64,000 nt of DNA from Thermoanaerobaculia bacterium. GTDB lineage: Bacteria; Acidobacteriota; Thermoanaerobaculia; Multivoradales; Multivoraceae. Below are positions 43,089 through 47,659 of this stretch, piece by piece. A model generated the notes under the pieces. The model did no database searches, was not told the DNA's origin, and saw nothing but the letters and a program-made list of their open reading frames with translations. A program made the translations under genes and the position numbers. How positions within the stretch are numbered: the first letter of the stretch is position 1; every line of letters starts with the position of its first letter. The DNA lies in the NCBI GenBank assembly GCA_022823665.1, contig JAJEHN010000009.1:310001-374000 (forward strand). Reading direction: 5' to 3'.

Positions 43089-43118
43089 GGTTCAGACTGG
43101 TTCAGCCTGGTTCAGACT
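43089..43118. repeat. Three tandem 10-bp repeats between murJ and the DUF4126 gene
   Basis: GGTTCAGACT, GGTTCAGCCT and GGTTCAGACT follow each other without a gap at 43089-43098, 43099-43108 and 43109-43118, differing by one base. The last copy overlaps the murJ stop codon (43117-43119). The spacing equals about one DNA turn. It may be a slippage product or a cooperative protein-binding array. Confidence 0.7.
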
Positions 43119-44823
43119 ACGTCGAGGGCCGGCGGCGGGTTTCGATCAACCAACGGCGCAGGGCCAACGCTTCGGGCACCTTGAGCACGTTGGCGGCGCC
43201 CAGGTAGGTGACGGCGAAGCCGACGACCGGAACGACGCCGGCTATCCAGGGCGGACCCGGCACGAGGGTCTGCGTCGCCGCCCAGGGCGCCACGCAGGCC
43301 GCGCCCAGTGCCAGGTGCAACATCCACGACCGCCATGGCGCCCGGACAGCGACGTCTCGTCGCTTCAGCCGCCCAAGCAACAGGCCCAGCTCGAGCCACG
43401 CACCCACCGCGGACCCCAGCGCGAGCCCGACCGCGCCAAGGCGCAGAGCCTGGGCCCCCTCTGGAGCCGCCGCCCGCAACCAGGGCAACACCTCTCCGAG
43501 CGGGATACGGTCGAGCAGAATCATCAAGACGGTGCCGAGCCCGGCCGCGAGGACGAGTCGCATCGCCGCGATCCGGGCGGGGCTTCGGGTGTCTCCCAGC
43601 GAAAAGAACACGCTCTGCAGAAGCCGCGAGGCACTGGAAGCCAGCAGGCCGAGAGAGTAAGCGCCCAGAACGAGGAACACGAGCCCGTTGTCCGCAAGGT
43701 CGAACTCACCGCGGCGGTAGATTGCGCCGACGATCCCGAACCCCAGCAGCACGTAACCGACCAGGGTCGGCGCCACCAGAAACGACATCGCCGCCAGGGA
43801 CCGTTGGGCACGCTCGGAGGCGGCCCGCGCGCGTTCGGGGGCGTCCCCGCGAAGTCGCGAGAGTTCCGTCAGTTCCGCTGCCGCCACGGAAACGGCGAAG
43901 AGGGAGATGGGGAGCAGATACAGACGCTGACCCCAGGTCAGGGCCGCCAGGGCGCCCTTGACCAGGAAGGACGCAAGGAAGAGATCGACGTAAGCGCCAA
44001 GCTGGCCTACGCCCCGGCCGGCGATCGCCGGGCCCAGGTTGGCCAGGGTCGTCCGAACGCCCTTTACCCGGAGGCTGAGGGACAGACGCAGACCTTCCGT
44101 AACCCGGAGGACCAGAGGCAGCTGCACCGCGAACTGAAGGAGGCCGCCGCCGAGACCGCCCCAGCAGACGGCAAGCGCGAGCGTTTCGACGCGATCGCTC
44201 CCAACGCTCGTGGTCCGCATCGCGACGAAGAGGATCGTGGCGATCACGCTCGCGTTCCAGAAGCACGGCGCCAGGTACGGAAGCAGAAAACGGCGGTGGC
44301 TGTTCAGGACGCCAAGGCACCAGGCCGACAGCGTGATCGCCGCCACCATCGGGAAACAGATGCGAACCGCGGTCGTGGCCAACTCCAGTCGATCGATCGC
44401 CTCCGTTCCGGCCGCCACGGCATCCGCGTCCGCGGCGAAGCCGGCAACGAGCAGGCGCACGATCTGAGGCGCCAGGAGGACGCCAAGCAGGCTCAACGCG
44501 GCCATCGCGGACAACAGAAGACCGAAGATGGCACCGGCCAGAGCGCCGGCCTCGCGGCGCCGGCCCTCGGCCAGCAAACGGCTGTACGTCGGAATGAACG
44601 ATGCCGAGAGCGCCTGGTCGCCGAGCAGGTTCTGCAGGACGTTCGGCGCCCGAAAGGCCACCGCCAGCACATCGGTCAGGGCGCCGACGCCGGCGACACC
44701 CGCGATCACGGCTTCCCGGACCAGGCCGAGAACGCGACTGGCCACGATGCCGGCCGCGATCCGCGGCGCACCGCTCACGGCCGCCGGCGCGCTCGCTCCT
44801 CCGGCGGACTCCGCCAGGGTCAA
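43117..44823 (-). CDS. murJ: Lipid II flippase MurJ
   Basis: Flips lipid-linked peptidoglycan precursors across the inner membrane (family knowledge). A 568-residue MATE/MOP-fold protein with about 14 transmembrane helices. N-terminal family signatures GIVASRVLGLVRE and FRAPNVLQNLLGDQALSASFIPTY are fully present. Its TTG start at 44823 overlaps the stop of the PilZ-AMIN gene (TTGA); a GTG at 44778 in the same frame would still retain the conserved N-terminus, so the true start is open. Either way the gene directly follows the PilZ-AMIN gene. Confidence 0.93.
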   Translation of the reverse strand: MTLAESAGGASAPAAVSGAPRIAAGIVASRVLGLVREAVIAGVAGVGALTDVLAVAFRAPNVLQNLLGDQALSASFIPTYSRLLAEGRRREAGALAGAIFGLLLSAMAALSLLGVLLAPQIVRLLVAGFAADADAVAAGTEAIDRLELATTAVRICFPMVAAITLSAWCLGVLNSHRRFLLPYLAPCFWNASVIATILFVAMRTTSVGSDRVETLALAVCWGGLGGGLLQFAVQLPLVLRVTEGLRLSLSLRVKGVRTTLANLGPAIAGRGVGQLGAYVDLFLASFLVKGALAALTWGQRLYLLPISLFAVSVAAAELTELSRLRGDAPERARAASERAQRSLAAMSFLVAPTLVGYVLLGFGIVGAIYRRGEFDLADNGLVFLVLGAYSLGLLASSASRLLQSVFFSLGDTRSPARIAAMRLVLAAGLGTVLMILLDRIPLGEVLPWLRAAAPEGAQALRLGAVGLALGSAVGAWLELGLLLGRLKRRDVAVRAPWRSWMLHLALGAACVAPWAATQTLVPGPPWIAGVVPVVGFAVTYLGAANVLKVPEALALRRWLIETRRRPST

Positions 44824-46262
44824 TCCGAAAGGTTGACGACGACCCGGTCGCCGCGTCGCTCGACCGTCGCCACGACGTTGGGCGCCGCCAGGTCGAGCAC
44901 CACGTGCAGGTTCCGCGTCGCTCCCCTGCCATGAACGCCGGTGCGCACGCCACGCAACCGGGGAGCGCTGACCGCGCTCGCATCGTAGTCCCGCTGCACG
45001 CCGATCAACCGCACGAGCAACCGCGGCGGCGCGTCCAGCGGCATCACATGGTGGCGCTCGAAGGGGGCGTTGCCCGTGATCTCGACCAGCGTCCGGTCAT
45101 CCCGCACCGAGGCTGTGATCGAGCGAAGCGCGGTCGCGTTGGCGGGCGCTGCGGTCGGCGCCGGAACTGACGGTGGAGGCGCCGAAGGACGCGGCCTGGC
45201 TGCCGGCTCGGGAGATGGGGCCGTCGCCTCGGGAGCTTGGATTGCCGACTCGGGAGACGAACTGGCCGCCTCGGGAGATGGGCTGGTCGGCTCGGAAGGC
45301 CTAGCGGGAACTTCGCCGGCGACCGGGGCCGGAGCCGGCGTCGACTCGGTCGAAGGCCGGGCGGCCGCGGGCGGATCCACGGGTCCGGTCGGTTCCTCGA
45401 CCGGCGCCGCAACCTCAAAGCTCTGCGCTACGGGAGCCGGCTGCTCCCCGCCGCCGTTCCCACCCATGCCGACGAGCCGCATCAGAGGCCCCCGCAGGAA
45501 GATCAGCAGGATGCCAACCAGGATGACGCCGGCCACCGTCGGCCAGACCCAGGAAGGTCTCTCGGACTCCCGGTTCATCCAGTCCTCATCGTCGCCCGCG
45601 AGGTCGCCGAACAACTCGGCGCGCGTACCGCCGGCTTCGCCGTCCTCGATTGCCGATCCCTCCGGGGACGCGGCCTCGTCCGCAGGCGGTTCCTCCGCGG
45701 CTGCCACGACATCGACCGGCTCCGCCTCATCCGCCTCTTCCCGTTCCTCCGCTGGCTCGACATCGTCCTCGACAGCCGCCGGCTCCACAGCGGGCTCGTC
45801 CGGTGTGTCGTCGACCGTCTCGGCGTCCTCCACTTCGGCCTCCTCCGGTTCTGCGGGCGCTGGCGGAGCCGCTTCGGCGGCCGGGTCCGAACCAGCCGCG
45901 TCGTCCGGCTGCTCGGAAAACAGCATCGCCAGGCGTTCCTCTCCCGGCGGCTCCACACGCGTGAACTGCATGCCCATTCCGGCCGGCTGGTCGGCGCCGC
46001 CCGGCGCCTCGCGCACCCAGACCACCGCGGCCTCACCCTGGACCGTGTCGGGCGGGTCCCCCGACCCCAGTTCGAGAACGAACGCCGCGGCCGTACCCAC
46101 GGGGCGGACGTCGGAGCTGGCCACGAACATCCCGCCGATCGCGATGTCGCGCGTCCGGGCGACGAGTTCCCCGTCCTCGCCGGACACCGTCAGGCGAACC
46201 GGCGCCTCCCGCAGCAGGCGGCGGGACTCGCGGAAGCGGAAACTCTGACTAGCCGGGGACAT
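44820..46262 (-). CDS. PilZ domain - transmembrane segment - AMIN domain protein
   Basis: A 480-residue protein of unusual architecture. Residues 11-115 form a PilZ domain with R14-x-x-x-R18 and D39-x-A-x-G-G, a slightly modified c-di-GMP-binding signature that would bind c-di-GMP in the cytoplasm. A very acidic low-complexity linker fills 117-236. One transmembrane helix lies at 238-256. A Pro/Ala/Ser/Glu-rich linker (274-375) leads to an AMIN domain (376-480), which in PilQ and amidase AmiC binds peptidoglycan. With the N-terminus inside, the AMIN domain would be periplasmic; charges around the helix do not settle the topology, as positive residues follow it. The stop overlaps the murJ start (TTGA). 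Confidence 0.75.
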   Translation of the reverse strand: MSPASQSFRFRESRRLLREAPVRLTVSGEDGELVARTRDIAIGGMFVASSDVRPVGTAAAFVLELGSGDPPDTVQGEAAVVWVREAPGGADQPAGMGMQFTRVEPPGEERLAMLFSEQPDDAAGSDPAAEAAPPAPAEPEEAEVEDAETVDDTPDEPAVEPAAVEDDVEPAEEREEADEAEPVDVVAAAEEPPADEAASPEGSAIEDGEAGGTRAELFGDLAGDDEDWMNRESERPSWVWPTVAGVILVGILLIFLRGPLMRLVGMGGNGGGEQPAPVAQSFEVAAPVEEPTGPVDPPAAARPSTESTPAPAPVAGEVPARPSEPTSPSPEAASSSPESAIQAPEATAPSPEPAARPRPSAPPPSVPAPTAAPANATALRSITASVRDDRTLVEITGNAPFERHHVMPLDAPPRLLVRLIGVQRDYDASAVSAPRLRGVRTGVHGRGATRNLHVVLDLAAPNVVATVERRGDRVVVNLSD

Positions 46263-46306: not shown

Positions 46307-47659
46307 TCAGGCCGTCTCCGCCCCCTTGCGCGCCACCAGCAACGCCATCTCCAGCGCCTGCTCGTAGTTCAGCCGCGGATCGACCTGGGAACGATAGGCC
46401 CGGCGCAGTCCCCGCTCGTCGAGGCCGCGTGCGCCGCCCGTGCACTCGGTGACGTCCTCGCCGGTGAGCTCGAAGTGGACGCCGCCCAGAATCGTGCCGT
46501 GGTCGGCGTGGAGGTCGAATGCCTGCTCCAGCTCCGAAAGGATGGCGTTGAAGTCCCTGGTCTTCATGCCGTCGGAGGTGCTCTTCGTGTTTCCGTGCAT
46601 CGGATCGCAGATCCAGAGCACGGGCTTGCCGGTGGCCGAGACCGCCTCGATGATCGGCGGCAGCTCCCGAGCCACCTTCTCGGCGCCGCAGCGGTGAATC
46701 AGCGCGAGCCGGCCTTCCTCGCCGCCGGGATTCAGCACCTCGACCAGGCCGGCCACGTCGGCGGGATCCATACCGGTTCCCACCTTGACGCCCAGGGGGT
46801 TCCGAATGCCGCGCGCGTACTCGATGTGGGCCGAGCCCGGGAACGCCGTCCGCAGCCCGATCCACGGCAGGTGTGTCGACAGGTTGTACCAGCCCGCCCG
46901 CCGCGGCACGGTCCGGGTCTGCGCCTGCTCGTAGACGAGGTGCAGGGCTTCGTGGCTGGCATAGAAGTCGACGCGGTCGATGTGGCCGACCTCGACGCCG
47001 GCGAGGGTCTCCATGAACTTCAGCGAATCGGCGATCGACTCGACCCGGCGCTGGTACTCGGCCGCGTTCTGCGAGTGGCCCACGAAGTCGAGGTTCCAGT
47101 ACTCCGGATGGTGCAGATCGGCGAACCCGCCGTCGATCAACCCCCGGATGAAGTTCAGCGTCAGCGCCGAACGCTGGTAGCCGCGCAGGAGGTTGAGCGG
47201 GTCGGGCTCACGCGCGCCGGCGTCGAAGTCGAGCGAGTTGACGAGGTCGCCCCGGTACGACGGCAGGGTCTCGTCGCCGCGGGTCTCGGTATCGGACGAC
47301 CGCGGCTTGGCGTACTGGCCGGCGAAGCGGCCGACGCGGATCACCCGCTTCTTCAGGCTGTGGGTCAGGACCAGGCTCATCTGCAGGAGGATCTTCAGCT
47401 TCGCCGTGATCGAGTCGGAGGTGCATTCGGCGAAGCTCTCCGCGCAGTCCCCGCCCTGGAGGACGAAGCGCTCGCCGCGCGCCGCGGAGGCCAACTGCCC
47501 CTTCAGCGTCTCGACCTCCCACGACGTCACGAGCGGCGGCAGCGCCGCGAGCCTGCCGGCCGCCGCCTGGAGCGCGTCCTGGTCGGCATAGGTCGGCTGC
47601 TGGCGCACGTCGGCGCTCTGCCAGGACGTCGGGTTCCAGTTGTCCGCTGCGTTGCTCAT
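46307..47659 (-). CDS. aroF: Class II 3-deoxy-7-phosphoheptulonate synthase (DAHP synthase)
   Basis: Condenses phosphoenolpyruvate and erythrose 4-phosphate, the first step of the shikimate pathway, in the cytoplasm. The 450-residue protein belongs to the plant/mycobacterial class II group. Metal site residues are visible: Cys in GGDCAES, His in CDPMHGNT, Glu in GGVHFELTG and Asp in VDPRLNYEQ. N-terminal WQSADVRQQPTY is also typical. No regulatory chorismate mutase domain is attached. It starts at an ATG at 47659 with GGAG nearby. Gene symbol naming varies (aroG in mycobacteria). Confidence 0.95.
   Translation of the reverse strand: MSNAADNWNPTSWQSADVRQQPTYADQDALQAAAGRLAALPPLVTSWEVETLKGQLASAARGERFVLQGGDCAESFAECTSDSITAKLKILLQMSLVLTHSLKKRVIRVGRFAGQYAKPRSSDTETRGDETLPSYRGDLVNSLDFDAGAREPDPLNLLRGYQRSALTLNFIRGLIDGGFADLHHPEYWNLDFVGHSQNAAEYQRRVESIADSLKFMETLAGVEVGHIDRVDFYASHEALHLVYEQAQTRTVPRRAGWYNLSTHLPWIGLRTAFPGSAHIEYARGIRNPLGVKVGTGMDPADVAGLVEVLNPGGEEGRLALIHRCGAEKVARELPPIIEAVSATGKPVLWICDPMHGNTKSTSDGMKTRDFNAILSELEQAFDLHADHGTILGGVHFELTGEDVTECTGGARGLDERGLRRAYRSQVDPRLNYEQALEMALLVARKGAETA

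Follow-up and report, generated by a model that had tools for sequence, protein, structure and literature searches.

A PilZ domain and an AMIN-fold domain joined by one membrane helix in uncultured Acidobacteria: a candidate link between a cyclic dinucleotide and the cell wall

A PilZ domain, a single transmembrane helix and an AMIN-fold domain are joined in one conserved protein, here termed PilZ-AMIN, encoded within 64,000 nucleotides of a Thermoanaerobaculia genome (the window, meaning the whole stretch of DNA analysed). The protein is best read as a bitopic inner-membrane receptor for a cyclic dinucleotide, with PilZ in the cytoplasm and a Pro-rich arm that would carry the AMIN-fold domain from the membrane helix to peptidoglycan. 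A cyclic dinucleotide on PilZ would change where, or with whom, the AMIN-fold domain engages, and through that engagement a membrane-anchored N-acetylmuramoyl-L-alanine amidase (Amidase_3), encoded by a gene of its own, would be recruited or licensed; this amidase would act together with a MamK-like actin filament. The arrangement would amount to an AmiC split in two, its AMIN half answering to a second messenger. The ligand in the window's genus (3′,3′-cGAMP and/or c-di-GMP) is probably the product of a single Hypr-type GGDEF enzyme. From sequence we infer ligand binding by PilZ and the direction of its effect; the explanation as a whole, a cyclic-dinucleotide receptor acting through AMIN on an amidase, has in our judgment about an even chance of being right.

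Architecture and conservation of the PilZ-AMIN protein

The gene is the minus-strand open reading frame 46262..44820, as the earlier sequence-only reading of this DNA had placed it. The domain order proposed there (PilZ, acidic linker, helix, Pro-rich linker, AMIN) is upheld, with the helix assigned by AlphaFold2 to residues 239-263. The features of the gene and its two neighbors are as follows:

44820..46262, minus strand: PilZ-TM-AMIN gene, whole open reading frame of 480 amino acids, ATG to TGA, with 15 full-length orthologues
45918..46232, minus strand: PilZ domain, residues 11-115, with RxxxR at R11/R15 and DxAxxG at D39/A41/G44 (Pfam, fold, motif)
45555..45917, minus strand: acidic disordered linker, predicted cytoplasmic, residues 116-236
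45474..45548, minus strand: single transmembrane helix, residues 239-263 (AlphaFold2 helix)
45138..45473, minus strand: Pro-rich disordered linker, predicted periplasmic, residues 264-375
44823..45137, minus strand: AMIN-fold domain, residues 376-480 (profile to PilQ; fold to AmiC and PilQ)
43117..44823, minus strand: gene for MurJ, the lipid II flippase (Pfam MurJ, E 1e-73)
46307..47659, minus strand: class II DAHP synthase gene, the conserved upstream neighbor

Conservation was assessed in an alignment of 16 sequences, the window protein and 15 full-length orthologues from related Acidobacteriota contigs, several of which carry the labels Holophagales, Thermoanaerobaculia or Candidatus Multivorans. 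Mean pairwise identity is 87-88% in both domains and ~50% in the linkers, and dN/dS is 0.18-0.21 in the PilZ and AMIN domains versus 0.41-0.57 in the linkers. These contrasts indicate that the gene is real and that both domains are under selection rather than products of chance. The plus-strand reading frames that overlap the gene are a product of high GC. Across the orthologues, the acidic linker carries a net charge of -35 to -42.

The identity of the first domain is confirmed by profile and by modelled fold. Pfam PF07238 matches residues 11-113 of the window protein with 33.9 bits (cut-off 22.5, E 4e-8) and is found in all 16 aligned sequences. No further Pfam domain matches the window protein, and the only other match among the 16 is insignificant. 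The AlphaFold2 model of the window protein has a PilZ barrel at residues 20-115 and disorder in both linkers; with VIA-align, the barrel reaches Z 13.5 to MotI and Z 11.8 to the c-di-GMP-bound PilZ structure 4xrn. Membership of the TIGR02266 family of PilZ paralogues was rejected at 46.0 bits, below the NCBIfam cut-off of 68.7.

The C-terminal domain is called an AMIN-fold domain because it misses the Pfam cut-off for AMIN. PF11741 has no match in any of the 16 aligned members, and one relative (L076) scores 19.0 bits, under the cut-off of 20.5. Searched against the PDB, a profile built from the C-terminal 106 residues has Myxococcus xanthus PilQ as its sole significant match (E 9e-5), and BLASTP of the domain finds the single Pfam-AMIN protein of its own genome with E 6e-5. 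The AlphaFold2 model is an eight-stranded sandwich at residues 379-479, which VIA-align places at Z 14.0 to AmiC and Z 13.9 to PilQ. Small-heat-shock and CS-domain matches (Z 7-8) were set aside as lower-ranked, generic sandwich matches. By profile and predicted fold, the domain is grouped with the AMIN domains of PilQ and AmiC, which bears out the AMIN domain previously proposed at residues 376-480. The genome's only Pfam-AMIN protein (L017:1045-1830, G000:C32) is small and consists of a signal-like N-terminal stretch, AMIN and an acidic, disordered tail.

The window protein has one membrane helix and lacks an N-terminal signal, so its PilZ and AMIN domains would lie on opposite sides of the membrane. 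Its own flanks are ambiguous by the positive-inside rule, with Arg on both sides and an acidic N side. Relatives from other families have RR or RRR directly ahead of the helix, and on this basis the same rule assigns PilZ to the cytoplasm and AMIN to the outer side of the membrane. An N-in topology is thus strongly supported by the relatives' sequences, in agreement with the inside-to-outside architecture first proposed.

The architecture is widespread in the order. The C-terminal profile finds its domain in 21 of 21 genomes of the genus and has weaker matches in most other genera, and the arrangement PilZ, linker, helix, linker and AMIN recurs in the reading frames read from families f2 to f9. 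Family f4 (L083, L084, L089) carries two PilZ-TM-AMIN genes in tandem, one without a recognizable RxxxR. Among the openly licensed papers searched, none mentions both 'PilZ domain' and 'AMIN domain'.

Gene neighborhoods and candidate partners

The likeliest partner of PilZ-AMIN is a peptidoglycan amidase, given that Escherichia coli AmiC holds AMIN and amidase in one chain. In AmiC, the AMIN domain is combined with Amidase_3, and the AMIN domains of AmiC and PilQ bind septal or polar peptidoglycan (PMC10653833). At eight loci from families f2, f5, f7, f8 and f9, PilZ-AMIN adjoins genes for a TM-anchored Amidase_3 and a MamK-like actin, in the order PilZ-AMIN, amidase, MamK in f5, f7 and f8 and amidase, MamK, PilZ-AMIN in f2 and f9. 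The clustered amidases are membrane-anchored and have no AMIN domain of their own. Match coordinates show PilZ and Amidase_3 as neighbors in 16 genomes from these five families; the AMIN part was verified by reading or profile in 11 of them. These clusters support a role of PilZ-AMIN in placing or licensing an amidase, and they strengthen the earlier suggestion that the protein acts on something that touches peptidoglycan. In the window's genus, PilZ-AMIN sits between DAHP synthase and MurJ, not next to the amidase, and it is likewise unlinked to an amidase in families f3, f4 and f6; an amidase partner in the genus is a proposal transferred from the other families.

The TM-anchored Amidase_3 and MamK-like actin pair itself was seen in all nine families examined, and no description of it was found in the papers searched. 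The window's own genome has the pair without AMIN (L134:5042-7114, G000:C34).

A second candidate partner is MurJ, the predicted start codon of which shares bases with the stop of PilZ-AMIN (TTGA). MurJ directly follows PilZ-AMIN in 16 of 16 loci of the genus, with the overlap in 15, and also in one sister genus, where the order DAHPS-PilZAMIN-MurJ-DUF4126-TPR is retained. The protein might thus regulate lipid II or cell-wall synthesis by coupling messenger level to MurJ instead of to an amidase. This is rather improbable, however: MurJ is not adjacent to PilZ-AMIN at the loci of other families that were read, and conservation around MurJ extends to a full block of unrelated genes, such that the linkage may be passive.

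A type IV pilus or secretin partner had also been suggested from the sequence, with c-di-GMP controlling the encounter of AMIN with PilQ or some other secretin. The AMIN domains of PilQ from M. xanthus and Neisseria meningitidis are among the closest fold matches, and that of M. xanthus is the closest in sequence, although PilZ-AMIN has no secretin domain as PilQ does. Other genera of the order additionally have PilQ-type reading frames with AMIN plus secretin. In the window's genus, however, nearly every genome has one secretin match (two in one fragmented assembly), the secretin of the window genome has no Pfam AMIN domain, and yet PilZ-AMIN is kept throughout. The loss of the PilQ-type secretin alongside retention of PilZ-AMIN argues against a pilus partner, which was set aside as the main reading, and no pilus genes were recognized beside PilZ-AMIN in the loci read. 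The suggestion is weakened to the point of being very unlikely. The window genome's only secretin (L100:4266-7334, G000:C28) has a weak match to a C-terminal cohesin domain, 23.1 bits against a cut-off of 24.1.

The PilZ motif and the candidate messenger

The ligand motif of PilZ had been described as mostly intact. This holds for RxxxR (R11, R15) and for the Asp and Gly of D39-x-A41-x-x-G44, all invariant in the 16 aligned sequences. The exception is the serine of the canonical [D/N]xSxxG, which is replaced by Ala41 in the window's genus. Ala stands at this position in 20 of 20 readable genomes of the genus (the 21st locus is incomplete), and Ser in all 57 other PilZ domains of the order, 21 from fusions and 36 controls. 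The serine of PilZ DxSxxG contacts the base and sugar of the ligand (PMC7288161), and its change to Ala could abolish binding.

PilZ-AMIN might instead be a ligand-free scaffold or localization factor, with PilZ serving as a protein-binding module and AMIN anchoring a complex at the septum or pole. Besides the Ala of the ligand motif, RxxxR is not seen in the aligned region of L085, L086, L088, L139 and the second copies of family f4, from which it follows that ligand control is not universal among PilZ-AMIN proteins. A precedent is PlpA of M. xanthus, a PilZ protein reported without c-di-GMP binding (PMC8844925). On the other side, RxxxR and the motif Asp and Gly are invariant in the genus under strong purifying selection, and a single GGDEF gene is maintained in 21 of 21 species. 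A scaffold of this kind is unlikely.

In the genus, all 21 genomes have exactly one PilZ and one GGDEF match apiece; the single PilZ protein is PilZ-AMIN, although 'only PilZ' does not equal 'only receptor'. Genomes of other genera have 0-19 PilZ and 4-30 GGDEF matches. The D344 and R300 positions were placed according to the PleD sequence and published alignments. In all 21 genomes, the GGDEF enzyme has Ser at the D344 position and an intact GGDEF motif. All 15 readable control GGDEF domains, taken from other genera, have Asp there; this set is biased by being drawn from high-scoring matches. Under the Hypr rule, which requires Ser or Thr at this position together with GGDEF, not GGEEF (PMC6456294), Ser with GGDEF is a signature of cGAMP synthases (PMC6456294, PMC9140294). 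At the cross-dimer position, where Arg is associated with c-di-GMP output (PMC6456294), the genus's enzyme has Asp, Gly or Asn and never Arg.

The genus's only GGDEF protein (G000:C33:35243-35761; L101, L110:1330-2055) carries the Hypr signature as GHVTGSRVL, and its I-site RxxD is apparently lost (RETG). It resembles the Hypr enzymes GacA of Geobacter and Bd0367 of Bdellovibrio in its Ser at the D344 position with GGDEF (PMC6456294). It differs from them in being small and without a recognized sensor domain, and its product is putative, read from sequence.

The Ser-to-Ala change in PilZ and the Asp-to-Ser change in GGDEF each represent an event in a single clade; that they coincide is therefore suggestive and not a statistical proof. 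With Ala at the ligand serine and a Hypr-type GGDEF, the ligand is left between 3′,3′-cGAMP and c-di-GMP. PilZ-AMIN may bind 3′,3′-cGAMP rather than c-di-GMP, and the original label 'c-di-GMP-binding' is not established for this genus. A minimal circuit can be drawn in which the Hypr GGDEF and PilZ co-diverged, PilZ becoming a 3′,3′-cGAMP receptor that would act across the membrane, via AMIN, on an amidase; this version is speculative and more probably wrong than right. To our knowledge, no PilZ cGAMP receptor has been described. The change in the receptor alongside that in the synthase offers a natural test of PilZ ligand choice. The genus seems to have cut GGDEF and PilZ down to one each, which makes both ends of the circuit accessible to expression and assay in vitro.

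Relation to known systems and significance

Alg44 of the Pseudomonas aeruginosa alginate system is alike in topology, with a cytoplasmic PilZ domain, one membrane helix and a periplasmic part. The Alg44 PilZ structure (4rt0/4rt1) is also among the fold matches of the window PilZ. The periplasmic part of Alg44 is not AMIN, whereas PilZ-AMIN has a domain of the peptidoglycan-binding type. Alg44 belongs to the alginate operon; in contrast, no exopolysaccharide genes were recognized adjoining PilZ-AMIN.

AmiC shares the AMIN fold and the linkage of AMIN to Amidase_3, which in PilZ-AMIN relatives is one of gene adjacency rather than fusion. AmiC is one exported chain without a cytoplasmic receptor, whereas AMIN in PilZ-AMIN is tethered to PilZ, and in the relatives the amidase is a protein of its own, anchored in the membrane, its gene paired with that of a MamK-like actin. 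The AMIN-containing FliO proteins of Campylobacter and other phyla likewise have AMIN outside and another domain inside, with a proposed role in envelope anchoring (PMC12403147). On the inside they carry a component of flagellar export and not PilZ, and their AMIN is N-terminal, the reverse of PilZ-AMIN.

The repeated clustering of PilZ-AMIN with an amidase and a MamK-like actin suggests a module for cell-wall remodelling, of which the papers searched give no description. We are not aware of any case in which a second messenger controls an amidase across the membrane by way of an AMIN domain. Sequence seldom reveals a direct link between a cyclic dinucleotide and the cell wall; here it would lie within one protein. 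In these uncultured Acidobacteria, cell-wall remodelling may be directly controlled by a second messenger.
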